Positions 2,175 through 21,456 of a stretch of DNA of 64,000 nt are shown one piece after another (within the stretch, counting starts at the first letter, position 1; every line of letters starts with the position of its first letter). This stretch comes from Thiothrix unzii. GTDB lineage: Bacteria; Pseudomonadota; Gammaproteobacteria; Thiotrichales; Thiotrichaceae. The notes beneath the pieces are model-generated. The model did not search any database and was not told the origin of the DNA. It saw nothing but the letters and a program-made list of their open reading frames with translations. The stretch lies in contig NZ_CP072793.1 in the NCBI RefSeq assembly GCF_017901175.1, positions 1,488,001-1,552,000 on the forward strand. Direction: 5' to 3'. Position numbers and translations under genes: made by a program.

Positions 2175-3353
2175 ATGATTCGTTTGGAAAAAGTCAATCC
2201 CATTAGCCCCGCGCTGATGGAGGAAGTCGGCATGACTTGGCACACTGACCCAGATGGGCAGCCTTACATTGCCGATGAAATTGTCCTGGTCACGGAAGAC
2301 GAAGTAGAAGCGTATTACGAAGCGGCGAACACCCTGTACGATATGTACGTTGAAGCTGCGCAGCACGTTATCGACAACGAGCGTTTTTTAGAGCTGGATA
2401 TTCCGTTTAACCTTGTTGATCCGATTAAACGTAGCTGGGAAAACGATCATCGGCATTTATACGGGCGTTTCGATTTTGCCGGTGGGGTGGATGGTTTGCC
2501 GATTAAACTGATTGAGTTTAATGCGGATACCCCGACCAGTTTATTTGAAACGGCGATTGTGCAATGGGCATTGCTGAAAGCCAATCATATGGATGAGGCT
2601 TCGCAGTTCAATTCTGTGTATGAAAGCATTCGCAACAGTTTCCGGCGTTTGGTGACGGGCGATAATGATCCCGATACTTTCGGCGAGTATTATCGTTTCC
2701 AAAATATTTTGTTTTCCAGTGTGCGCAATGAGCCGGAAGACGAGCGCACTGTGCGGTTTTTGCAGCATTTAGCCAGTGATGCGGGGTTTCAGACCGACTT
2801 TTGTTACACCGACGAAGTGGGCTTTTTGGAAGAAGAGGGGATTTTTAACCCGCAACAAACGCGCTTCGATTATTGGTTTAAGTTGTATCCGTGGGAAAAT
2901 ATCGCGCTGCAAACTGACGGTATTAATGGCATTTTAGATGACATTACCCGCAATACCGACACCGTGATTCTCAACCCGGCGTATACCTTGCTGTTCCAAA
3001 GCAAAGGTATGCTGAAAGTGTTGTATGAGCTGTTCCCGGATTCGCCGTATTTGCTGGAAACCCGTGGTGAGCCATTGCAAGGTCAACAACAGGTGGCAAA
3101 GAAAATGTTTGGGCGCGAAGGTGCAAACACGGTGATTTACGATGCGGCAGGGGCGATTTTGCACGCAATGCCGGGTGAATACGACCGTTACCGCAGCATT
3201 TACCAAGCGTTTGCCGCTTACCCGAAAGATGCGCAAGGCCGCAGCTACCAAGCTGGGGTGTTTTTCGCGTGGGAAGCTTGTGGCTTAGGTTTCCGCCGTG
3301 GCGGGGAAATTCTCGACAATCTCAGCAAGTTCGTGGCGCACCGCATGGTGTAA
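2175..3353 (+). CDS. ygiC: YgiC-type ATP-grasp ligase (glutathionylspermidine synthase family)
   Basis: 392 residues, the full length of the YgiC/YjfC branch of the glutathionylspermidine synthase C-terminal family (about 386 in E. coli). Conserved blocks include IEFNADTPTSLFE (about 115-127) and the C-terminal GVFFAWEACGLGFRRGG. The fold is an ATP-grasp amide ligase joining a carboxylate to an amine. E. coli YgiC does not make glutathionylspermidine, so the real substrate is unknown. It follows the lipoprotein gene by 6 bp and is surely co-transcribed with it. The family is secure; the function is open. Confidence 0.85.
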   Translation: MIRLEKVNPISPALMEEVGMTWHTDPDGQPYIADEIVLVTEDEVEAYYEAANTLYDMYVEAAQHVIDNERFLELDIPFNLVDPIKRSWENDHRHLYGRFDFAGGVDGLPIKLIEFNADTPTSLFETAIVQWALLKANHMDEASQFNSVYESIRNSFRRLVTGDNDPDTFGEYYRFQNILFSSVRNEPEDERTVRFLQHLASDAGFQTDFCYTDEVGFLEEEGIFNPQQTRFDYWFKLYPWENIALQTDGINGILDDITRNTDTVILNPAYTLLFQSKGMLKVLYELFPDSPYLLETRGEPLQGQQQVAKKMFGREGANTVIYDAAGAILHAMPGEYDRYRSIYQAFAAYPKDAQGRSYQAGVFFAWEACGLGFRRGGEILDNLSKFVAHRMV

Positions 3354-7745: not shown

Positions 7746-7973
7746 AATTAACTCCCTAAATCGCATTGGGCGAAGGAAAAGATTCGCATCATAATACGAA
7801 CGCTTCAGGGATTACACCCCAAAAACCGTAATGTTGGCGGATTTTTTCAGGTTTGCAGCATTTCATTGTTACCTGTCAGCTAAAATGCAATGCGTGTCGG
7901 GAAAAATTGGCGATGTAGTGATAGAATCCACACTCTAACTGAACAGATTGCCGCAGCATACACAGGTTTTTGA

Positions 7974-10043
7974 ATGAAATATTCGCGTTATTCCCACAAA
8001 ACAATGGTTCATCGTCTTTTGTTAGCTTCCATGTTGTGGTTGGCAACTGCGCCGAGCGGCATGGCTGAGGATGCGCCGCGCATCAATTTACAGGATGTTG
8101 AAATCCGTCAGTTAGTTGATATTGTTGCAAAAGATACCGGTAAGAATTTCATTGTTGACCCCCAAGTGCGTGGCAAGATCACCTTTGTTTCAGGGCGTGG
8201 CTTGGATAAGTCCGGCTTGTATGAAGCCTTTCTTTCGGTGCTACAAGTTCACGGTTTTGATGCGATTGAGTCGGGTGATTTAATTAAAATTGTGCCCGTG
8301 GGCAAGGCGCGTTCTCAGGTCGCTCCCTTGGTAAACAACGCTGGTGAAAGCAATGTTGATGAAACCGTCACCGAAGTCATCAAACTGAATTACATTCCTG
8401 TCGCGACGGCATTACAGACGTTGACCCCATTGAGTGGTCAAGGCGAAACCCGGATTCAGCCGAATCAGGCCAGTAACTCTGTGGTTATTACCGGGCGGGC
8501 GCAAAACGTCGCACGCTTACGCGCGGTGGCAGAGAGTATTGATAACCCTAATAACGATGATTTTGAGCTGGTGGAATTGCAGTATGCAGTAGCTTCGCAA
8601 GTGGCAACCACGTTACAAGGTTTAATGGCTCCCGGTGGCGCGGCAGGCGAAGGTGCATTGCCTGCAACCGGGCGGGTATCAGCAGATGAGCGCACCAATA
8701 GCGTATTAGTTTCCGGCGACAAGCAAACCCGCGAACGCATGAAAAAAGCGATTGCCAAACTGGACGTGCAACGTGCTACCGAAGGCGATACCCGTGTTAT
8801 CCCCTTGCGTTACGCTAAAGCGGAAGATGTGGTGGCGGTGCTTAACGGTGTATCCCCTGCGTTGCAAGAACAATCGGGGGCAACCCCCGCTGCGGGTGGA
8901 GCTGCCCCAGCCGCAGTAGCGAGTGCCGCACGCAGTGGTGGGGTGACGGTATTAGCGGATAAGTCCAGCAACTCGATTATTATCAGCGGCCCGCCGACCT
9001 TACAGAAAAACATGATGGGCGTGATTGCACAACTGGATCGGCGGCGTGCGCAGGTGCTGGTTGAAGCGGTTATTGCGGAAGTTTCGACCGACTTGAGCAA
9101 TAAAATTGGCGCGACTTTGCTCTCCAATGGTGCAGCCGATGGTAAGGGCGCGGTGGGTTACAGCAACTTTGCTACCGACGGTTTAAATACGGCGATTGCG
9201 CTGGCAAGTGGCACAGCAACAGCCGTACCTGGTGGTTTGTTGCTGGGTGGTGGTAATAAAAGTTTTGGTGCGATTGTGGAAGCCCTCAAGGGCGATGCAG
9301 CTACCAATATTCTTTCCACGCCTACCTTGGTGACAATGGATAATGAGGAAGCGGAAATCACGGTTGGTCAGGAAGTGCCGTTTATTACCGGCAAAAGTAC
9401 CAGCAGCTCTAGCGATACCACCAATCCGTTTACCACCATTGAACGCCGTGACGTGGGCTTGAAGTTTAAAATTACCCCGCAAATCAATCGTGGCGAAACG
9501 GTTAACCTGAAAATTGAGCAGGAATCCTCCAATGTGGCTTCCAGCAGTGCGGGCGCGTCCGATTTGATTACCAATAAACGCCGTATTATGACCAATGTGA
9601 TGGTGGATGACGGGCAAATTTTGGTGTTAGGCGGTTTAATCGAAGACAATTACCGCGATTCTGAAAATAAAGTGCCGGTGCTGGGCGATATTCCGGTATT
9701 GGGCGGCATTTTCCGTAATAACACCACCAACAAAACCAAAAATAACCTGATGGTATTTATCCATCCGGTGATTTTGCCGGATGCGCAATCCGCTGATGCG
9801 TATACCCGCCGTAAGTACCAAACCATGCAACAGCAACAACAGCGCAGCCAAGTGACTCAGCGCGGTAGTTTGCCAGAAAAAGCCTCCACTTTGCCTGCGG
9901 ATATGAGCAAAGTGAGCAATGGTTCGGCGGACGATTTGCACCTCGGCTCACCGCTATACCCCGTCCAGGGAAGACCGCATAAACCTGCCCAGCAAGGGGC
10001 GTGCGTTAATTCGGCAGACCCGTTCTGTAATGGTACGTTATGA
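7974..10043 (+). CDS. gspD: Type II secretion secretin GspD
   Basis: 689 residues with an N-terminal signal (cleavage near SGMA/ED). The order is N0 domain (INLQDVEIRQLVDIVAKDTG), N1-N3 repeats to about residue 360 with a Gly/Ala-rich loop, then the secretin barrel containing VPFITGKST, RRDVGLKFKITPQI and LGGLIEDN. It forms the outer-membrane channel through which folded exoproteins leave the periplasm. The C-terminus is Gln-rich and may be the pilotin-binding end. It overlaps gspE by 4 bp (ATGA). No gspC precedes it. Confidence 0.95.
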   Translation: MKYSRYSHKTMVHRLLLASMLWLATAPSGMAEDAPRINLQDVEIRQLVDIVAKDTGKNFIVDPQVRGKITFVSGRGLDKSGLYEAFLSVLQVHGFDAIESGDLIKIVPVGKARSQVAPLVNNAGESNVDETVTEVIKLNYIPVATALQTLTPLSGQGETRIQPNQASNSVVITGRAQNVARLRAVAESIDNPNNDDFELVELQYAVASQVATTLQGLMAPGGAAGEGALPATGRVSADERTNSVLVSGDKQTRERMKKAIAKLDVQRATEGDTRVIPLRYAKAEDVVAVLNGVSPALQEQSGATPAAGGAAPAAVASAARSGGVTVLADKSSNSIIISGPPTLQKNMMGVIAQLDRRRAQVLVEAVIAEVSTDLSNKIGATLLSNGAADGKGAVGYSNFATDGLNTAIALASGTATAVPGGLLLGGGNKSFGAIVEALKGDAATNILSTPTLVTMDNEEAEITVGQEVPFITGKSTSSSSDTTNPFTTIERRDVGLKFKITPQINRGETVNLKIEQESSNVASSSAGASDLITNKRRIMTNVMVDDGQILVLGGLIEDNYRDSENKVPVLGDIPVLGGIFRNNTTNKTKNNLMVFIHPVILPDAQSADAYTRRKYQTMQQQQQRSQVTQRGSLPEKASTLPADMSKVSNGSADDLHLGSPLYPVQGRPHKPAQQGACVNSADPFCNGTL

Positions 10044-11545: not shown

Positions 11546-12766
11546 GTGCCAGCCTTTGAATACCTTGCATTAAACCCAGCGGGTAAAGAAGAGCGCGGTA
11601 TTTTGGAAGCGGATGCGCCGCGTCAGGTGCGCCAATTATTGCGCAATCGTGAATTAGTGCCGCTGGAAGTTAACGAGGTTGCCCAAAAGCAAAAGACGGC
11701 GGAAAACCGGGGCTTTCTGGGAAGCGGTCGGTTAAATCCGACCGACCTTGCGTTAATGACGCGGCAATTAGCCACTTTGGTTGGTGCAGGTTCACCCGTT
11801 GAAGAAGCCTTGAGTGCCATCGTGCGCCAAACCGAACGGCCTTCCGCGCGGCGTATTTTCTCGGCAATTCGGGCGCGGGTTATGGAAGGTCATGCCTTGG
11901 CAAACGCGCTGGCGTTGTTTCCGGGGGCGTTTCCGGTGTTGTATCGGGCAACCGTGGGCGCGGGTGAACAATCGGGGCATTTACCGGCAGTGTTAGAGCG
12001 GTTGGCGGAATACACCGAAAATCACCAGCACGGGCAGCAAAAAATCATGACGGCGTTGGCTTACCCTACCGTATTACTGTTGGTGGCGATTGGGGTGGTG
12101 GTGGCGTTATTGCGTTTTGTTGTGCCGAAAGTGGTGGAAGCTTTTGAAACCCTTGATGTGACATTGCCGCTGCTGACGCGGATGCTGATTGCCTCCAGCG
12201 AGTTTTTACAGAATTACGGTTTGGTGTTACTGCTGGGCATTGGTTTGGTGGTGGCGGGCGTGGCGTGGTTATTACGTAAGCCGCAGTGGCAACGGCGTTA
12301 CCATCAATTGCTGTTGCGCGTGCCGATTATTGGACGCTTGGTGCGCGGTATTAATACTGAACATTTTGCCCGCACTTTTAGCATTCTCAATAGCAGCGGG
12401 GTGTCGGTGTTAGAGGCGATGAAGATTTCGGCAGAAGTCGTGACCAATATTCCGATGCGCGAATCCGTGTTGAGCGCGGCAGATCGGGTACGCGAAGGGA
12501 TGCCGATTCATAAAGCATTGGAGCGTTCGGGGTATTTTCCGCCGATGATGGTTTACCTGATTGCCAGCGGAGAAGGCAGCGGTCGTTTGGATCAAATGTT
12601 GGAACGCGCTGCGATTCAACAAGAACGCGAAACCCAAGCCCGACTCGCTACCTTGTTGAGTTTGCTGGAACCTGGGCTGATTTTGTTCATGGGCGGCATT
12701 GTTACCTTGATCGTGTTGTCAATTATGTTGCCGGTGATGGGCGGCATGTCTAATTTAATGCATTAA
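11546..12766 (+). CDS. gspF: Type II secretion inner-membrane protein GspF
   Basis: 406 residues starting at GTG directly after the gspE stop, with GGGAGG about 10 bases before. Two GspF four-helix cytoplasmic repeats (about 70-190 and 270-390) are joined by membrane segments near 170-190, 220-245 and 375-400. Start [17 protein letters not shown] and motif [17 protein letters not shown] are typical. Its 3' end overlaps convergent mutS by 12 bp. No pseudopilin genes follow. Confidence 0.94.
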
Positions 12767-15352
12767 TCTTTTTAACCGATATAACTCGTCTAACGCTTGG
12801 CGTGGGGTGAGTTCATCCGGGTCTACGGCGGCGAGTGCCGCTTTCACCTTTTCGGCGATTTCATCTTTGGGTTCGGTGGGTGTGCCGAACATCAGTGGCA
12901 GGGTTTGCCCCGGTTGTGGGGCTTGCTGGCTGTGCTTTTCCAGTGATACCAGTTTCTTTTTTGCCTGTGCAATCACGCCTTTGGGTACACCTGCCAATTG
13001 TGCTACTTGCAGGCCGTAGCTTTGGTTGGCGGGGCCTTCTTTCACCGCGTGTAAAAACACGATTTTGTCGCCATGCTCTACTGCGTCGATATGCACATTC
13101 GCAATGGTGCTGATTTGTTCGGCGAGGGAGGTTAGCTCGAAATAGTGGGTGGCAAATAGGGTGAAAGCTTTGCGGTCGCGGGCGAGGAATTCGGCGATTG
13201 CCCATGCCAGTGACAAGCCATCGAATGTGCTGGTTCCGCGCCCGATTTCGTCCATTAATACCAAACTGTGGGCGGTGGCGTTGTTGAGGATATTGGCGGC
13301 TTCGGTCATTTCTACCATGAAGGTTGAACGCCCGGTGCTTAAGTCGTCGTGTGCGCCAATGCGGGTGAAAATACGGTCAATATTGCCAAGACGAGCGGTT
13401 TGCGCGGGGACGTAACTGCCAATGTGTGCCAGCAACACGATCAACGCAACTTGGCGCATGTAGGTGGATTTTCCGCCCATATTCGGGCCTGTGACCATCA
13501 ACATACGGCGGCGCGAGTCCATGTATAAATCGTTTGGTACGAAGGGGTTATCGAGGGTGCGTTCGACTACCGGATGCCTTCCGCCTTCGATTTGAATACC
13601 CGCACCATCCACCAGCGCGGGGCAGTTGTAATTTAAGGTGTTGGCGCGTTCGGCGAAATTGCTCAATACATCGAGTTCGGCGATGGCTTGTGCGGTGTTG
13701 CGAATGGGGTTTAAGTGTTCCAGTAAATCACGTAACAGGTTGTCGTAAATCGCTTTCTCGCGGGCAAGGGCGCGTTCGCGGGCAGACAGCACTTTGTCTT
13801 CAAATTTTTTCAGTTCGGGCAGAATGAAGCGTTCCACGCCTTTAAGCGTTTGGCGACGGATGTAGTCGGCGGGAATCCGGCTCAGTTGACTTTGCGGGAT
13901 TTCGACGTAATAGCCGTGGATACGGTTGTAGGCGACTTTGAGATTGTTGATACCGGTGCGGACTTTTTCGCGGGCTTCGAGATCAAGCAGGTATTGGTCG
14001 GCGTTCTCGCTCAAATTGCGTAATTCATCGAGTTCGGCATCGAAACTGGGAGCGATTACGCCACCGTCGCGGATGACCACGGGTGGGTTGTCGATAATGG
14101 CGGAATCCAGCAGGTAGCGGAGTGCCTCGTGCAGGTCGATATTGCTTTGTAATTGCTGGATGTGCGGGTTGTCGATGGTGCCGATCAAACCGTGAATGCC
14201 TGGCAATACGTGCAAGGAACTACGCAGGGTGGACAGGTCACGCGGACGTGCTGAGCCGAGGGCGATGCGGCTGGCGATGCGCTCGATGTCGCCGATGCCG
14301 CGCAAGGTTTCCAGCAGGGTTTCGTAGCGGTATTGGTCGAGCAATGCGCCGACAGCTTGGTGGCGGTTGCGTAAGGTAAAACGGTCGCGCAACGGTTTGT
14401 TGAGCCAGCGGCGTAGCAGGCGGCTGCCCATGCTGGTGGCGGTTTTGTCGATCACCGAAATCAGGGTGTTTTTGTGTTCACCGCTGATGCTGTATTCGAG
14501 TTCCAGATTGCGGCGGCTGGCGGCATCGAGAATGATGCCTTCGTCGCTGAGTTCCACCGTGAGGCTGTTGATGTGGGGCAGGGCGGTGCGCTGGGTTTCT
14601 TGCACGTAATTGAGCAATGCGCCCGCAGCGGCAATCGCAAGTGGCAGGTGATTGCAGCCGAAACCGTCGAGATCGTGTACCCCGAATTGGCGTAGCAGCA
14701 GGCGTTTGGCGGTGTCGAGGTCGAAGTGCCATTGCGGGCGCGGGGTGGAAATGCGGTTGCGGGCGAAGGCGGGTTTCCAGTCTTCGTCGTGCAGGATTTC
14801 AGCGGGTTGCAGGCGTTCGATTTCATTGTGCAGGGTGGTGTCGGAATCGGCTTCTTGCACGGTGAAGCGTCCGGTGCTTAGGTCGATGGCGGCGATGCCG
14901 TAAGACCCCCCCTTCCCCGGCCCTTCCCCCGCAAGGGGGGCAGGGAGTCTATGAATCGCGACGAGCAGGTTGTCGCGACGATCATCCAGCAAATAATCAT
15001 CAGTGACAGTGCCGGGGGTTAGTAGGCGGGTGATTTTGCGTTCGACCGGGCCTTTAGACTTAGCGGGGTCGCCGACTTGTTCGCAAATGGCGACAGATTC
15101 GCCGACTTTAAGGAGTTTGGCGAGGTATTGTTCGACCGCGTGGTAAGGCACACCCGCCATCGCAATCGGTTCCCCAGCGGAAGAGCCGCGTGCGGTGAGG
15201 GTGATGTCGAGCAAGGCAGCGGCTTTTTTTGCGTCATCCATGAACAGTTCGTAGAAATCGCCCATGCGGTAAAACAGGAGGATGTCGGGGTATTCCGCTT
15301 TGATTCGGAAATACTGTTGCATCATGGGGGTGTGTTGCTGTTCTTTGCTCAT
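12755..15352 (-). CDS. mutS: DNA mismatch repair protein MutS with in-frame repeat insert
   Basis: 865 residues from [18 protein letters not shown]; the frame extends to 15442 but that leader is not MutS-like. It recognises mismatches and recruits MutL. The mismatch-binding region has FYELFMDDA (the Phe-x-Glu wedge), and the ATPase domain has Walker [10 protein letters not shown], Walker [17 protein letters not shown] and THYFELT. A palindromic repeat (14907-14947) lies in the connector domain and encodes [14 protein letters not shown] where E. coli MutS has a short loop between LLAAI and GYATLD. All catalytic motifs are intact, so the protein is probably active. Confidence 0.96.
14907..14947 (+). 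repeat. In-frame palindromic repeat copy A, inside mutS
   Basis: A 41-nt C/G-rich element with a central CCCCCGCAAGGGGG palindrome. It matches the two 41-nt copies at 46045-46085 and 46300-46340 with two base differences. The host frame is kept open and gains about 9-14 residues ([14 protein letters not shown]). Confidence 0.85.
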
Positions 15353-15495
15353 GGCTCGTCGGGGCTGCTGGATTAAGCAGGAGAGTTTAGCAGTAATCGG
15401 GGGAGGGCGTGAACGGATTGGGAAACGGCATTTTTCACACATCGCCCATCATTCCCGTCTATAATTACCCCACACCATGATTCCGGGGGCTTCTC

Positions 15496-18369
15496 ATGTT
15501 AACCACACTCCAACGCGCCTTGCTGCTTGCCGTCCTGCTGCTGGCGGCTTTACCCACCCTTGCGGCAGAACCCGACCCCACCCCCATCCTGCGCATCGAG
15601 CCGGGAATGCACTTCGCCCAAATCAAGCGGATTGACGTGGATGCTGCCGAGCGTTTTATGGTCAGTGCCGCCGATGACAAAACCGCACGGGTGTGGGATT
15701 TGCACACCGGCAAGCTGTTGCAGGTGCTGCGCCCGCCGCAGGGTGAGGGGCATGAGGGCAAGTTATTTGCCGTGGCGATTTCCCCGGACGGGGAACAGGT
15801 GGCGGTGGCAGGCTGGGACGCGAATATCTACCTCTTCCAGCGCAGCAGCGGCGCATTGCTCACCCGGCTGCGTGACCTGGCTGATGTCATCAACCACCTC
15901 GCCTTTTCCCCGGATGGCAGCAAGCTGGCTGTAGCGTTGGGAGAAGGTGGCATCCGCCTGTTCTCCACCCGCGACTGGCAGGAGCTTGCCCGTGACAGTG
16001 ATTATGGCGGCAACAGCTACAGTGTCGATTTCGATGCGCAGGGGCGTGTGGTCAGCACCAGTTACGATGGTCAGGTGCGCCTGTACGATGCCGGGTTGAA
16101 GCTGCTGCACTCATACAAAACGCAGGGCGGCAGCCGCCCGTACTTCGCCCGTTTCTCCCCCGATGGCAAACAAGTGGCTGTGGGCTTTGCCGACAGCACG
16201 GCGGTGGAAATCCTCGCCGCTGCCGGTTTGCAGCCCGTGCGCAGGCAGGATACGCAGGGGATTGATAATGGCAATCTGGGCAGGATTGCCTGGTCGCAGG
16301 ATGGTCGCCGTCTGACTGCGGGTGGGCGTTATGAGGACGGCAACGGCAGGCCGCTGGTGGTCTGGGACAAGGGCGGCGCAGGCAAACGCTCGCTGTGGCG
16401 TGCTTCGCAGAATACCGTGATGGACATCAAGCCGCTCAAGGATGGCGGGGTGGTGTATGCCAGTGCTGATCCTGCCATCGGACGGCTGGATGCCAACGGG
16501 CAGGTGGTGTGGAAGCAGACTTCCGGGGTGTTGGATTATCGGGATATTGATGTTTCTTTAGGAGATACGGGCGATATGGTTGCCATCCCATATGCCTATG
16601 AAACTAAAAAAGGTGATGTTGTTAGGGGTAAATGGGAATGGTTGGTGAATGAACTTCAATCGCCAAAGCAGGGTACTGCTAATCTCAAAGGAGTACGACA
16701 AACCGCACCGGGATTGAATATTTCTGAATGGAAAAATACCACACATCCCAAACTCAACGGCCAACCCCTGCCGCTGCAAGACTACGAAACCTCCCACAGC
16801 CTCGCCATCGACGCCCAAGGCAACAGCTTCGCGCTGGGTGCGGACTGGTCTTTGCGGCTGTATGGCAAAGACGGCTCCTTGCGCTGGCAACAGTCCGTGC
16901 CAGTGGCATGGGCGGTCAATATCAGTGCCGATGACCGCTGGGTGGTGGCAGCACTCGGCGATGGCACGATCCGCTGGTACGAAAAGGCAAGCGGCAAAGA
17001 GCGGCTGGCCTTCTACCTGCACCCGGATGAAAAACGCTGGGTGACGTGGACGCCGGAGGGCTTCTACGCCGCTGCCGAGGGTGCGGAGGATCTGATCGGT
17101 TATCACCTCAACCGGGGCGCGGATCAGGAAGCCGAATTCGTCGGGGTGGAGCAGTTGCGCCAAGTGTTCGCCCGCGCCGATCTGGTCACCAAAGCGCTGG
17201 ATGACGACTACCCGCAACTGGCACAGGCCGCGCTGGAAAAAGCAGGCGATGTACGCCAAATCCTGCAAGCCGGTCTGCCACCCACGGTCGAGGTGGGGGG
17301 TGGGCCACAGCAGCAACTCAAACAGCGCAGCTTCGATCTGGATGTGACCCTGCATGATCAGGGTGGCGGCATCGGGCGGGTCGAATACCGCGTCAACGGC
17401 GAGGTGGTCAACAGTGCCGCCGCCCGCCCGTTTAGCCCACGCTCCCCCGCAGGGCAACAGGCATTGCGCCGCCCATTCTCGCTGCGCAACGGCGACAACA
17501 CCATCGAAGTAGTGGCCTACAGCAAAAACGACAAGGTGGCTTCCAAACCCGTGCGTGTACAGGTGCAGGTGGATGACCCGGTGCAGCGCGAACCGTCGCT
17601 GTACATCCTCAGCATCGGCGTCAGTGACTACCGCGACCAGAGTTTCGCCCTCAAATACGCCGCCGATGACGCGGTGGATTTCGCCGCTGAACTGCAAAAA
17701 CACGGCGACATGTTCCAGAAGGTCGAACCCAAAGTCCTGCGTGACAAGGACGTGACCCTCGCCAGCATCCACGCCGCATTCGAGGAAATGGCAGCCAAGG
17801 TGCAGCCGCAGGACGTGTTCGTGCTCTACCTCGCCGGGCATGGCGTGGTTGCCGATGGGCGCTACCACTACGTGCCGCAGGATGTGGTCTACGAAAACAG
17901 CGACGCCATCCGCCAGCAGGCGCTGGGCGAAGAAAAGCTGCGTGACTGGCTGTCACTGGTGGAGGCAGGCAAGCGCGTGATGGTGATCGACACCTGCCAC
18001 GCGGGCAAAAGCCTCACCACCCTCGCCGCGCTCGACACCCCGGCCGCACGCGGCATGGATGACAAGGCTGCCATCGACCGCCTGATGCAGGCTACCGGCA
18101 CCTCGATCCTCGCCGCTGCTTCCAGCCAGCAACAGGCACTGGAAGGCATCGCCGAAGGCGGGCAAGGCCACGGCCTGTTCACTCACGTCTTGCTCAAAGG
18201 CTTGCAGGGCAAGGCCGACCTGATCAAAGATGGCACGGTCAACGTGGGGGAACTGCAAGCCTACGCCCGTGACGAAGTGCCGCGCCTCTCCAAACAGCAA
18301 TGGCAATACGAACAGTTCCCCATGTTCCAGTTGAACGGGCAGGACTTCCCGCTTGCGCAGGTCAAATAG
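15496..18369 (+). CDS. Exported WD40 beta-propeller caspase-like (C14) protein
   Basis: 957 residues. A signal peptide (cleavage near TLAA/EP) sends it to the periplasm or beyond. Residues 35-500 hold WD40-like repeats (SAADDKTARVWDLHTG, VAISPDGEQVAVAGWD, LAFSPDGSKLAVAL and others), followed by a beta-rich linker (600-690). The C-terminal caspase fold (about 700-955) starts LYILSIGVSDYRD and keeps the catalytic dyad: His782 in LYLAGHG and Cys834 in IDTCHAG. A TATAAT lies at 15460 and a G-rich RBS at 15485. The next gene starts inside its stop (TAGTG). It is visibly more GC-rich than its neighbours except for an AT-rich patch at 16537-16755. The substrate is unknown. Confidence 0.88.
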   Translation: MLTTLQRALLLAVLLLAALPTLAAEPDPTPILRIEPGMHFAQIKRIDVDAAERFMVSAADDKTARVWDLHTGKLLQVLRPPQGEGHEGKLFAVAISPDGEQVAVAGWDANIYLFQRSSGALLTRLRDLADVINHLAFSPDGSKLAVALGEGGIRLFSTRDWQELARDSDYGGNSYSVDFDAQGRVVSTSYDGQVRLYDAGLKLLHSYKTQGGSRPYFARFSPDGKQVAVGFADSTAVEILAAAGLQPVRRQDTQGIDNGNLGRIAWSQDGRRLTAGGRYEDGNGRPLVVWDKGGAGKRSLWRASQNTVMDIKPLKDGGVVYASADPAIGRLDANGQVVWKQTSGVLDYRDIDVSLGDTGDMVAIPYAYETKKGDVVRGKWEWLVNELQSPKQGTANLKGVRQTAPGLNISEWKNTTHPKLNGQPLPLQDYETSHSLAIDAQGNSFALGADWSLRLYGKDGSLRWQQSVPVAWAVNISADDRWVVAALGDGTIRWYEKASGKERLAFYLHPDEKRWVTWTPEGFYAAAEGAEDLIGYHLNRGADQEAEFVGVEQLRQVFARADLVTKALDDDYPQLAQAALEKAGDVRQILQAGLPPTVEVGGGPQQQLKQRSFDLDVTLHDQGGGIGRVEYRVNGEVVNSAAARPFSPRSPAGQQALRRPFSLRNGDNTIEVVAYSKNDKVASKPVRVQVQVDDPVQREPSLYILSIGVSDYRDQSFALKYAADDAVDFAAELQKHGDMFQKVEPKVLRDKDVTLASIHAAFEEMAAKVQPQDVFVLYLAGHGVVADGRYHYVPQDVVYENSDAIRQQALGEEKLRDWLSLVEAGKRVMVIDTCHAGKSLTTLAALDTPAARGMDDKAAIDRLMQATGTSILAAASSQQQALEGIAEGGQGHGLFTHVLLKGLQGKADLIKDGTVNVGELQAYARDEVPRLSKQQWQYEQFPMFQLNGQDFPLAQVK

Positions 18370-19907
18370 TGGGTACGCCGCCGCTCAGGATTTTCATCAG
18401 CTATAGCCATGATTCTGATGAACACCGTCATAGGGTTCTAGCACTTTCAGACGGCTTGAATAAAAGCGGTCTGAACTGCGATATTGACCAATACATCAAT
18501 GGTTCACCGGAAGAAGGCTGGCCTCTGTGGATGGAGCGGATGTTGGAAACAGCATCGTATGTTCTTGTCATTTGCACTGAGACTTATCTGAATCGTGTAC
18601 AGCGCAAAGAAAAGCAGGGCATCGGCAAGGGCGTAAAGTGGGAGTCATTACTGACTTATCAGGACATTTACGACAACGACGGGTTAAACCGCAAATTTAT
18701 CCCGGTTGTCTTCACCGCCGATGACACCGTTTTCATTCCCAAACCGCTGCGGGCAGTGTCGCATTACAACCTCAGCATTGAAGGCAGCTACGAAAAATTG
18801 CTGCGTCACCTTACAGGGCAACCTGTTGCTGTCAAACCACAACCGGGGCAAGTACCCTCTTTAGCACCGATCAACCATTTTCCTCCACTTTCCCCTGATA
18901 CCTTGGCGGATATTCACCACCGAGTATTTCTAGCCAATTCATCTCATCAACTTAACCAAGTGAGGTATGAGCTTGAACAATATATGGCAGATTATCCCCA
19001 TTCTCCCGATGCTTTAATGCTGCTTGACCGTCTAAAAATCGCTATTGAAAAAGAAGATGAACGAAATCGTCTTCCTTCCTCTGCACCTTTAAAAAGTGCC
19101 CATATCTCTTGGTGGAGTGTGATCCTATTAGTCCTCGCAATTGTTATGGGGCTGATTTTTTATTGGCTTAGTCAGAAGACAACGCCTATTGGTGAAACCC
19201 TGCTCCAACAAGGCGAATACCAGCAAGCCCAACAGGAATGCCAAGCCGCTCCCGCATCCACCGCCCGCGAGCGTTGTTTGCGCATCACCAGCCTGATGCT
19301 GGAACCACGTGATGTAGAAACCTTTTACGCCGCCGCCAACCCTGAAGACTCTGCTTACGCATTGGCGGTGATGGGCGAAGCCGAAGCCAGCCGCGAAGAC
19401 TTCAGCAACGCTGAAAAACACTATCAGGATGCGATTCAGCGTAACCCTGCTGTGGCACAAGCCTATTTCGGTATGGGGCAAATTCGTCAGATGCAAAACC
19501 GTGCCGCAGAAGCATTGGACTGGTACAAACAAGCAGTGGATTATGCGCCCAATAACCGCCGTTTCCAGCTAAATCTCGCCTCCACTTATGTCGAACAGGG
19601 ACAATTACCCGCAGCCGAACAGCACTACCGAAAAGTGTTGTCATTGGATAACAGCACCTTGCTGGCTTACGCCGAGTTAGTGGATGTATTGCTTAAACAG
19701 CAGAAAACTGTCGAAGCCCGCGCATTGGCACATCATGCACAACAAGGGCTGGCGAATAATCCCGACTGGAAAAACAGCCCGCTCAATCAGGATGTATGGT
19801 TGGTGATGCAGGATGGCAACCCCGCCTATCTGGAAAGCTGGGAAGACAAGCAGGCGTATTTGCTTGCGCAGTTTCAGAAAGCAGGCTTTGTAAGCGAGAA
19901 TAAATAA
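18369..19907 (+). CDS. SEFIR-domain membrane protein with TPR ectodomain
   Basis: 512 residues from a GTG sharing one base with the upstream TAG stop; upstream frame to 18300 only overlaps the caspase gene. Residues 1-135 match the SEFIR family, a TIR relative: RIFISYSHDSDEHRHRV, DQYINGSPEEGWPLWM, VICTETYLNRV and KGVKWESLL. A helical linker is followed by one membrane helix near 246-268 (WWSVILLVLAIVMGLIFYWL), then TPR-like repeats (about 330-480). With N inside, SEFIR is cytoplasmic and the TPRs face the compartment to which the caspase is exported. SEFIR or TIR domains act as signalling adaptors or NAD-cleaving enzymes; which applies here is not known. Confidence 0.85.
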   Translation: MGTPPLRIFISYSHDSDEHRHRVLALSDGLNKSGLNCDIDQYINGSPEEGWPLWMERMLETASYVLVICTETYLNRVQRKEKQGIGKGVKWESLLTYQDIYDNDGLNRKFIPVVFTADDTVFIPKPLRAVSHYNLSIEGSYEKLLRHLTGQPVAVKPQPGQVPSLAPINHFPPLSPDTLADIHHRVFLANSSHQLNQVRYELEQYMADYPHSPDALMLLDRLKIAIEKEDERNRLPSSAPLKSAHISWWSVILLVLAIVMGLIFYWLSQKTTPIGETLLQQGEYQQAQQECQAAPASTARERCLRITSLMLEPRDVETFYAAANPEDSAYALAVMGEAEASREDFSNAEKHYQDAIQRNPAVAQAYFGMGQIRQMQNRAAEALDWYKQAVDYAPNNRRFQLNLASTYVEQGQLPAAEQHYRKVLSLDNSTLLAYAELVDVLLKQQKTVEARALAHHAQQGLANNPDWKNSPLNQDVWLVMQDGNPAYLESWEDKQAYLLAQFQKAGFVSENK

Positions 19908-19920
19908 AATACTGGCTTGG

Positions 19921-21456
19921 TTAACCCTCCACCACCCAATCATCCACACTCTTCAGCTCACTGCTAAAATTAATACCCACCAACACCTTCGAGCGCGGAT
20001 CATCCCGAAATGCCCCCGCGTAATCGCGAGCCTTGATCTGCGCCATTGCCGCCTGTGCCGTTTTATCCAGTTTGAACTCCAGAATATAAATATGCGTTGC
20101 CGTTTTCACCACGCAATCAACCCGCCCATTACTCTCATTGACTTCCGCTTCGCTGTACTGCCCCAGATAGAAAAACGTCAAGTAAATCAAACTGTGGTAA
20201 TACGCCTCACGGTCTTGCAGGAAAATCTGATACGGAATTTTCTTGAATACCGTTTTGATGATTTCAATTACCTCAGGTAAATCATTGCCGTCAAAGGCTT
20301 CACTCAGATGCACCACCATTGGTGTTGTCCTGGCAGGTTCAACATGCGCCCATTCCGCCATCAAAAACATCATCATTGACGCACGTACTTCACGGTTAGG
20401 GTAATCCAACCAATACATGCCACGTTTATCTTGGTCTTTTAGGGTCAAATAGCCTGTCTGGAACATTACGGGGACAAGCTCTAATTCTTCAAGATCGTAA
20501 TTGCCCAAAGCCAATTCATCTACCCGCAACTTATCCAGACGATACACTTTCTTGCGGCGCATCAACTTCGGCAAAAACGTCGGTGTGCCCGATTCAAACC
20601 AGAAATTGCGGAATGCCTGCGCCTGAAAGAAGCTCAAGATCGAATACGGATTGTAAACGCGGGTACGTAAGTCCCAACTGTAACCGTTATACCATTCACG
20701 GATTTTTTCCTGCAATGCCGCACGGGTTAAGCCAAGATAGCTTTCCGTTTCCGGCATATAGGGTGTGAAATAGTGCTCCAATTCCGCTTGTGTATACCCC
20801 AATAGCGTGCTGGCACTGCGGTCAAATGTCAGGTCAAACAGGTTATTCAAATCCGAGAAAATCGACACGCGGCTAAACTTCGACACGCCGGTAATCAGCA
20901 AAAACTCCAAATACGGATCACTGTCTTTCAGCACCGAATAGAAAGTTTTCATGGTCTGTTGATTGGCTTTGGCTTGCGGAATGTCATCAAGGTAGTCAAT
21001 CAACGGCTTGTCATATTCGTCGATCAGCAACACCACATTGCCTTGCTGTTTGGCAAGTTTTTCAAGTAGTTCAGCAAACACGTTTTTCAGCGTTGTGCTT
21101 ACCAAAGTAAGGCCATGTTGCGTTGCAATCGCTTCCAGCGTTTGTTGCAAAGCTGTTTCCAGACCCAAACCCTGATAATCAAGCTTGTTGATAGACAGGT
21201 GAATCACGGGGTGGGTCTTGCTCCAATCCCATTGATCCGCGATCCACAGCCCATCAAACAGGGCACGATTGCCTTGGTAGATTTCTTTGATGGTGGAAAG
21301 CAACAACGATTTACCAAAACGGCGCGGTCGCGACAGGAAGAAATATTTGCCTTTGCACAGTAACCGTTGGATAGCTTCCGTTTTATCTACGTACAGACAG
21401 TCGCGTTCTCTCAACTCTGAAAACGTCTGGATACCAACAGGGAGGCGTTGCAGCAT
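19921..21456 (-). CDS. AAA-ATPase-like / PD-(D/E)XK nuclease family protein
   Basis: 511 residues of the paired AAA-ATPase-like plus PDDEXK_9 (DUF1703) architecture. It opens LPVGIQTFSELRERDCLYVDKT and carries a P-loop SRPRRFGKSLLLST (about 42-55), Walker B-like VVLLIDEYDKPLIDYL, and the sensor region FLLITGVSKFSRVSIFSDLNN. The C-terminal nuclease-like segment has GRVDCVVKT...YILEFKL, the D...ExK pattern. The family is multicopy in many bacteria and its function is not established; defence or selfish roles have been proposed. Convergent with the SEFIR gene (13 bp apart), with no sign of decay. Confidence 0.9.
   Translation of the reverse strand: MLQRLPVGIQTFSELRERDCLYVDKTEAIQRLLCKGKYFFLSRPRRFGKSLLLSTIKEIYQGNRALFDGLWIADQWDWSKTHPVIHLSINKLDYQGLGLETALQQTLEAIATQHGLTLVSTTLKNVFAELLEKLAKQQGNVVLLIDEYDKPLIDYLDDIPQAKANQQTMKTFYSVLKDSDPYLEFLLITGVSKFSRVSIFSDLNNLFDLTFDRSASTLLGYTQAELEHYFTPYMPETESYLGLTRAALQEKIREWYNGYSWDLRTRVYNPYSILSFFQAQAFRNFWFESGTPTFLPKLMRRKKVYRLDKLRVDELALGNYDLEELELVPVMFQTGYLTLKDQDKRGMYWLDYPNREVRASMMMFLMAEWAHVEPARTTPMVVHLSEAFDGNDLPEVIEIIKTVFKKIPYQIFLQDREAYYHSLIYLTFFYLGQYSEAEVNESNGRVDCVVKTATHIYILEFKLDKTAQAAMAQIKARDYAGAFRDDPRSKVLVGINFSSELKSVDDWVVEG

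Follow-up and report, generated by a model that had tools for sequence, protein, structure and literature searches.

Two adjoining genes on the plus strand of the Thiothrix unzii genome, at positions 15496-19907 of a 64,000-nucleotide (nt) stretch of contig NZ_CP072793.1 (hereafter the window), encode a WD40-caspase with an export-type N-terminus (P0001) and a receptor (P0002) made of a SEFIR domain, a transmembrane (TM) helix and a TPR ectodomain. Caspases of this kind were found beside a receptor of X-TM-TPR build, X being a variable domain, in 21 pairs, the window included, from Pseudomonadota and Acidobacteriota. It is proposed, at a probability of roughly 0.5, that the two proteins form an envelope-facing two-part system, in which the propeller-caspase, located in the periplasm, would interact with the TPR ectodomain and control a TIR or SEFIR output that consumes NAD in the cytoplasm. 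The recurrence of the pair suggests a hitherto undescribed system, one that could relay a signal through the membrane.

The two genes share one strand in all 21 pairs, with the receptor downstream in 19 and upstream in two (L153 and L279; compared loci and genomes carry L and G numbers), and the overlap or gap is at most 6 nt in 12 of them (the window, L125, L126, L127, L132, L151, L273, L278, L325, L326, L328, and L331). X is a TIR domain in 14 pairs (L123, L125, L126, L127, L132, L153, L273, L278, L325, L326, L327, L328, L329, and L330, the last assigned by Pfam) and a SEFIR domain in two (the window and L274). Several of the closest relatives of the window caspase are followed by a TIR-TM-TPR gene, namely those in the Acidobacteriota loci L125 (gap of 3 nt) and L126 (overlap of 4 nt), and in L127, L132 (gap of 2 nt), and L123 (gap of 305 nt); the gap of 1009 nt in L330 holds an open reading frame (ORF) of 178 amino acids (aa). 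Some pairs are incomplete: contig ends truncate the L123, L273, and L325 receptors and the L153 caspase, the L151 and L275 caspases and the L274 receptor are each split over two frames, and L278 has only a caspase fragment (491 aa). The two overlapping frames of L274 (3161-4872), one with the SEFIR and one with the TM-TPR part, reflect either a frameshift in the assembly or disruption of the gene.

An alignment of five WD40-caspases, scanned over a genome collection of 84,980 species, gave at least 551 relatives, of which the best 80 loci were kept. A profile of eight caspases (A2) was scanned over eight individually chosen genomes, 396 genomes of the phylum of G404, 194, 199, 38, and 250 genomes of four families, and 63 genomes of the window's order. 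Seven of the 21 paired caspases are in this profile and their scores are therefore inflated; the other 14 pairs are not in it. The order-wide search found the caspase in three of the 63 genomes, the window's genome included, and yielded L325 and L326 in the window's own family, both beside TIR-TM-TPR genes. Within the genus, the caspase profile had no match at E 1e-100 in the 15 other genomes. SEFIR proteins are present in 13 of the 16 genus genomes and in 18 of the 57 genomes of the whole search (the window's genome included), and phmmer with the window caspase domain found no caspase ORF near the SEFIR hits in 30 larger loci, some genomes being represented twice. Taken alone, the genus-level absence would refute the conservation that an earlier, sequence-only reading of the window had expected; the wider caspase-profile search reversed this. 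That expectation stands for the caspase with an X-TM-TPR receptor and shrinks to the window and L274 for the strict SEFIR form. Chance neighbourhood was rejected, since the wider search found a recurrent pair. A third gene completing the system was also rejected for now, as no third gene family occurs in more than two compared loci, out-of-frame ORFs inside the two genes apart.

The caspase profile matched 129 loci, 126 of them with an ORF over 550 aa; with the window added, a floor of 690 bits left 79 rows, and removal of two of at least 1250 aa left 77 for the tree, on which the paired fragment of L278 and the caspase of L294, which is in pieces, are not represented. All 20 paired caspases on the tree fall in one clade of 25 rows (Shimodaira-Hasegawa-like approximate likelihood ratio test 99, quick method, 17 forks open). 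Among the 52 rows outside the clade, none of the 48 with at least 1500 nt of downstream sequence carries that receptor. Counted over 20 paired and 49 unpaired rows with at least 1500 nt downstream, and without a shuffle control, pairing takes two changes on the tree, for which one gain and one loss would do; L122, L130, L139, L148, L225, L269, L283, and L306, with less than 1500 nt downstream, are left out of this count. The shuffle table, which set the paired rows against three contig-end rows only, showed no clustering (all 500 shuffles being as low) and is uninformative. Clade members L130 and L269 have 0 and 484 nt of downstream sequence, and L148, in which the caspase domain was not seen, has no partner in 799 nt. 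The His-Cys dyad is present in all 21 clade ORFs reaching that region, and the L275 and L278 fragments have it as well.

A leave-one-out profile of the ectodomains, from which P0002 was excluded, matches the P0002 ectodomain with E 3e-46 and 156 bits, whereas the best non-partner in a set of 5050 ORFs (those of overlapping loci being counted repeatedly), a 1471-aa TPR protein of L294, reaches 109 bits and the next one 56; generic TPR similarity was rejected on these scores. By the tree and this profile, the window thus holds the pair as it is proposed here, a clade caspase adjoining a receptor whose ectodomain is that of the clade. The receptors also have in common a motif C-terminal to the TPRs (W, then K..Y), which the model renders as a hairpin and a helix. 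In the reciprocal search, 194 genomes of one family were scanned with a profile of 15 ectodomains, the 11 best candidates being scored in each, and six genomes (G403, G408, G851, G896, G930, and G946) matched, all six with the pair. Since four of these six had supplied profile sequences, it is the lack of matches in the other 188 genomes that is informative. G946 has a second, partial ectodomain match on another contig. Weak variants can be missed with only 11 candidates per genome, as G863 (L294) was unmatched though its TPR protein had scored 109 bits earlier, and the reverse count is incomplete because the caspase fragments of G863 and G971 are off the tree. Caspase and ectodomain distances correlate over 18 pairs (r = 0.71, permutation p 0.0002, by a statistic that ignores kinship), and taken by part, the ectodomain distances follow those of the propeller, linker, and caspase with r of 0.62, 0.60, and 0.56 (18, 17, and 17 pairs).

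Several variant arrangements were seen among the WD40-caspase loci. Outside the clade, the caspases of L167 and L296 are followed by a short TPR protein (7923-8567, a lipoprotein by eye, and 2718-3347, respectively) with a weak ectodomain-profile match of 56 and 45 bits, perhaps a simpler caspase-TPR pairing. In L294 (4674-12001), a WD40-caspase in two ORFs is followed after 28 nt by the 1471-aa TPR protein, which has an N-terminal hydrophobic stretch and is perhaps a variant partner. Part of a second WD40-caspase (1-1098, at the contig start) lies directly upstream of the paired one in L126. A second caspase-like gene follows the WD40-caspase in L117 (3160-8267), L120 (2688-7869), L187 (1095-6044), and L199 (5860-10995); it encodes C14 plus DUF4384 by Pfam in L117 and L120, and is recognised by a phmmer match only in L187 and by a weak one in L199. 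The 1679-aa protein of L157 (6001-11040) has two tandem propeller units, and its C-terminus is by eye a different peptidase-like region (LHGHA, DTCYSG).

The window caspase gene (15496-18369 including the stop, plus strand) encodes 957 aa, and the AlphaFold2 model of P0001 is confident (predicted local distance difference test, pLDDT, 88.4; predicted template modelling score, pTM, 0.84). Residues 1-24 (15496-15567) form a hydrophobic, signal-like stretch by hydropathy and by eye, a predicted signal peptide in a clade with export-type N-termini. The beta-propeller region, residues 30-540 (15583-17115), is matched by Pfam WD40-type models (WD40 E 2e-24), and has 43 modelled strands between residues 31 and 538; the 50 Foldseek matches listed for P0001 are propeller or WD-repeat chains by title. 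A beta-sandwich linker, Ig-like by eye from the strand pattern of the model, spans residues 597-695 (17284-17580). The caspase (C14) domain follows at residues 702-955 (17599-18360; PF00656 E 7e-15 at 705-945), with His782 in LAGHG (codon 17839-17841) and Cys834 in DTC (codon 17995-17997) as the residues catalytic by family. Both are invariant in an eight-sequence alignment of relatives, and in a 45-row alignment Cys834 is invariant and His782 at least 90% conserved. With its C14 domain, His-Cys dyad, and confident model, P0001 belongs to Peptidase C14/orthocaspase; the Pfam scan found no families other than propeller and C14, and the only NCBIfam match, NF047832 (EACC1-associated caspase), lies below the cut-off (75.5 bits vs 140). 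A patch of low guanine-cytosine (GC) content (47%) at 16500-16800 inside the propeller gene, otherwise at about 62%, coincides with a poorly aligning stretch. In a plasmid search, four records matched the caspase at E 1e-30.

The receptor gene (18369-19907 including the stop, plus strand) encodes 512 aa (model pLDDT 77.1). Its GTG start (18369-18371) shares one base with the caspase TAG in the stop/start overlap TAGTG (18367-18371), which suggests that the two genes may be translationally coupled; GTG also agrees better than an alternative in-frame ATG at 18300 with where the relatives L325 and L326 start. The SEFIR domain, cytoplasmic by prediction, covers residues 8-157 (18390-18839) and belongs to the SEFIR family by PF08357 (8-135, E 6e-12, 46.5 bits vs a curated cut-off of 23), with a match to PDB 5y8e (E 8e-10). 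The PADLOC bSEFIR profile (PDLC03957) is matched with E 1.4e-49 at positions 40-203 of 412 only, and not in full, the remainder of P0002 being TM-TPR. Glu92 (GVKWE, codon 18642-18644) aligns with the GVGTE glutamate of the bacterial SEFIR 5y8e, which is no more than suggestive and makes Glu92 a candidate NADase glutamate. The TM helix (residues 246-264, 19104-19160; hydropathy 2.55) is followed by the TPR ectodomain with its C-terminal beta-hairpin and helix (residues 268-509, 19170-19895), periplasmic by prediction. This last region is identified by the ectodomain profile, Pfam TPR models match P0002, the model places the hairpin at 477-488 and the helix at 491-509, and the 50 Foldseek matches listed for P0002 are TPR or helical-repeat chains by title. 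The plasmid search gave 117 records matching P0002, none of them over 80% of its length. For both genes, the sequence-only reading had the ORFs and coordinates right, as well as the SEFIR gene starting inside the caspase stop and the WD40-caspase with an intact dyad and a signal peptide, the latter so far as hydropathy and inspection by eye can tell.

Export-type N-termini occur in 24 of the 25 clade caspases, 19 by a 15-residue hydropathy rule for a hydrophobic N-terminal stretch and five by eye (L148 and L328 as lipoproteins; L125, L330, and the separate N-terminal ORF of L151 as signal-peptide-like); L178 is without an N-terminus. A lipobox is also present in L123, L275, L327, L329, and L331, and two export routes in one clade suggest that location matters. 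Lysine and arginine residues beside the TM helix number three on the N side and one on the C side of P0002, which fits a SEFIR inside and TPRs outside, and they favour TIR/SEFIR inside in 12 of 20 receptors, making this the likely orientation; in the L125 receptor no TM helix was found by rule. A partnership of caspase and receptor in one predicted compartment is well supported by the export-type N-termini, the recurrence of the pair, and the distance correlation, in keeping with the shared compartment that the sequence-only reading had assigned to the TPR ectodomain and the caspase.

From the genes, their linkage, and the predicted topology we infer binding, a direction of signalling, proteolysis, NADase output, and an antiphage role, as follows. 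The two genes would make one functional unit spanning the cytoplasmic membrane. The caspase would be exported to the periplasm, where in several relatives it looks lipid-anchored, and its propeller would serve as a sensor or docking surface that binds, and perhaps cleaves, the TPR ectodomain of its partner, a single-pass receptor whose N-terminal domain, a SEFIR here and a TIR in most relatives, would lie in the cytoplasm. An event at the envelope, e.g., phage adsorption or envelope damage, would alter the caspase-ectodomain complex; the receptor would then cluster or be released, and its SEFIR or TIR domain would consume NAD+, leading to dormancy or death, or make a nucleotide signal. A more specific version is put forward tentatively, at somewhat less than even odds: the extracytoplasmic propeller-caspase may gate the TIR/SEFIR receptor through binding or cleavage of its ectodomain, in a logic that would parallel protease-triggered Toll/IL-17 signalling in a prokaryote, with interchangeable outputs and no messenger crossing the membrane.

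The proposed outputs differ among the pairs. Of 19 scanned receptors, 13 of which bear a TIR, 12 match PADLOC ThsB (PDLC00420), in the TIR part only and without a match in L330, and PADLOC assigns bSEFIR-type SEFIR domains to the window and L274. Caspase and TIR distances correlate with r = 0.09 over 12 pairs, rising to 0.73 over 11 without L330 and to 0.85 over 10 without L329 and L330; free shuffling of the TIRs was dropped on account of this rise, which indicates a ThsB-like TIR mostly co-inherited and replaced or lost in a few lineages. The ThsB-like TIR is probably ancestral, with several later replacements or losses; two changes are required on the tree to set the two SEFIR members apart from 13 TIR members. 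The window SEFIR shares 79% identity over 163 residues with its counterpart in L096, a locus of another genome in the genus, and clusters with it and two further ones (100/99); to the L274 SEFIR it is 37% identical. GC content drops from 65% to 48% at the start of the SEFIR gene. From the L096 identity and grouping and the GC drop, this looks like a domain swap, in which the receptor gene captured a SEFIR within the genus. L096 (5946-11974) has two SEFIR genes about 2 kb apart, whose SEFIRs are the nearest to that of the window (79% and 73%); the L096 SEFIR protein has a P-loop motif by eye and an AAA_22 match below cut-off.

With the caspase and TM-TPR constant and the cytoplasmic domain variable, a periplasmic sensing or switching pair with a TIR/SEFIR output is favoured. 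The same constancy also speaks for the reverse flow, in which the SEFIR or TIR senses a cytoplasmic event and the ectodomain, as a caspase-activating scaffold, activates or releases the periplasmic caspase, which then attacks proteins of the envelope, so that the cell is lysed or remodelled: caspase and ectodomain persist while the cytoplasmic domain is exchanged or unrecognised in nine of 21 pairs (SEFIR in two, an aberrant TIR in two, none in five), and TPR-plus-caspase-like regulation is known from Craspase, as far as the accessible sources go. However, bacterial TIRs are described, in the accessible part of PMC12847820, as NADase effectors or signal makers and not as sensors driving a periplasmic protease, and this reverse flow is considered unlikely.

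The described system nearest to the pair is type IV Thoeris, of which Rousset 2025 is reportedly the original description. Like it, the pair encodes a TIR-family protein and a caspase-like protease together (a TIR in 14 of the 21 pairs, a SEFIR in the window), and the TIRs of the relatives match ThsB models. In type IV Thoeris, the TIR is coupled to the protease by N7-cADPR (accessible part of PMC12847820, as for the comparisons made here); the window caspase differs in its export-type N-terminus and WD40 propeller, and the TIR/SEFIR differs in being tethered to a TM-TPR ectodomain, with the active domains predicted on opposite sides of the membrane. A Thoeris-like scheme, in which a nucleotide messenger from the TIR/SEFIR activates the caspase and the signal peptide is unused or the caspase acts before export, draws on this described operon arrangement and on ThsB as the best PADLOC match of the relatives' TIRs. 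It is distinctly improbable in view of the export-type N-termini of the clade, the five partners without a recognised TIR or SEFIR, the restriction of P0001 to propeller and C14 families, and a pairing that follows the TPR ectodomain. By prediction, the exported P0001, with those two families only, would be out of reach of a Thoeris messenger and would lack the nucleotide-binding region of the caspase in that system.

The surroundings bear on a non-immune role. The pair stands between a divergent mutS-like gene (12755-15442, minus strand, identity by eye) and a convergent AAA-ATPase_like/PDDEXK_9 gene (19921-21456, minus strand), with type II secretion genes (by eye) also nearby. A relative of the mutS-like gene (694-3621 in L328) lies, in a different orientation, beside the L328 pair of another family. 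A housekeeping or developmental role, as an envelope protease whose TPR adaptor is anchored in the membrane, with TIR/SEFIR domains as scaffolds only and no part in immunity or death, would suit the adjoining mutS and secretion genes and the receptors without a recognised cytoplasmic domain. It is nevertheless judged improbable, given the patchy distribution (0 of 15 genus mates; three of 63 in the order), the domain swaps, and the ThsB/bSEFIR-type domains, all usual in conflict systems. Many roles have been proposed for prokaryotic metacaspases (accessible part of PMC3501461), which would leave room for such a protease.

Several results weigh against the proposed envelope-facing system. No full-length caspase relative was found in the 15 other genus genomes, only partial matches, and nothing resembling defence-island content surrounds the window pair. 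Clade member L178, whose upstream side is truncated at a contig end, has no partner within 5,991 nt downstream, and L122 has none within 747 nt. Export is predicted from hydropathy and by eye, the P0002 model is weak overall (pTM 0.50), and the charges beside the TM helix tie in four of 20 receptors (L123, L132, L327, and L329) and are reversed in four (L153, L273, L279, and L331), which qualifies the shared compartment. Shared descent alone can produce the caspase-ectodomain correlation. Lastly, five of the 21 receptors (L124, L151, L275, L279, and L331) have no recognised cytoplasmic domain, so that NADase output is not a universal role and the reverse-flow and scaffold readings keep some probability; of the two-part transmembrane system that the sequence-only reading had suggested, the recurrent two-gene unit with an export-type caspase is retained, and these five receptors speak against a form of it in which a TIR/SEFIR output is always required.

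Each part of the pair has counterparts elsewhere. The bSEFIR defence protein acts by NADase activity and abortive infection; the window receptor has its SEFIR domain (PDLC03957), and differs from it in the unmatched second half of the profile, the TM helix, the TPR ectodomain, and the caspase partner. Animal Toll and IL-17 receptors cross the membrane once, with their TIR or SEFIR on the inside and an ectodomain that binds proteins on the outside. The window receptor resembles them, by analogy only, in its single pass and the predicted placement of both parts, and differs in its opposite N-to-C orientation, TPR ectodomain, and caspase partner. The EACC1-associated caspases of membrane-associated two-gene conflict systems (accessible part of PMC7159879; NF047832) are the sole NCBIfam match of P0001, which scores below their cut-off and has a different partner; no search for EACC1 itself was made. 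The accessible part of PMC3501461 describes prokaryotic WD40-metacaspases with a caspase, WD40, and N-terminal helices that are possibly signal peptides, and names no TIR/SEFIR-TM-TPR operon partner. TIR, caspase, or WD40 parts in conflict systems, and not this pair, are covered in the accessible parts of PMC7159879, PMC8195603, PMC3501461, PMC10907252, PMC13142454, and PMC13174449. No description of an exported caspase with a TIR/SEFIR-TM-TPR partner was found in the literature searched, most subscription papers being outside its scope, which agrees with the sequence-only reading, to whose author no such system was known.

The natural swaps on one ectodomain, i.e., ThsB-type TIR, other TIRs, SEFIR, or no recognised domain, would make different outputs comparable on the same sensor. 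To our knowledge, bacterial TIR and caspase systems sense infection inside the cell. If the proposed system holds true, bacteria, too, would monitor their envelope with transmembrane receptors of the TIR family, in the logic of Toll and IL-17 receptors.

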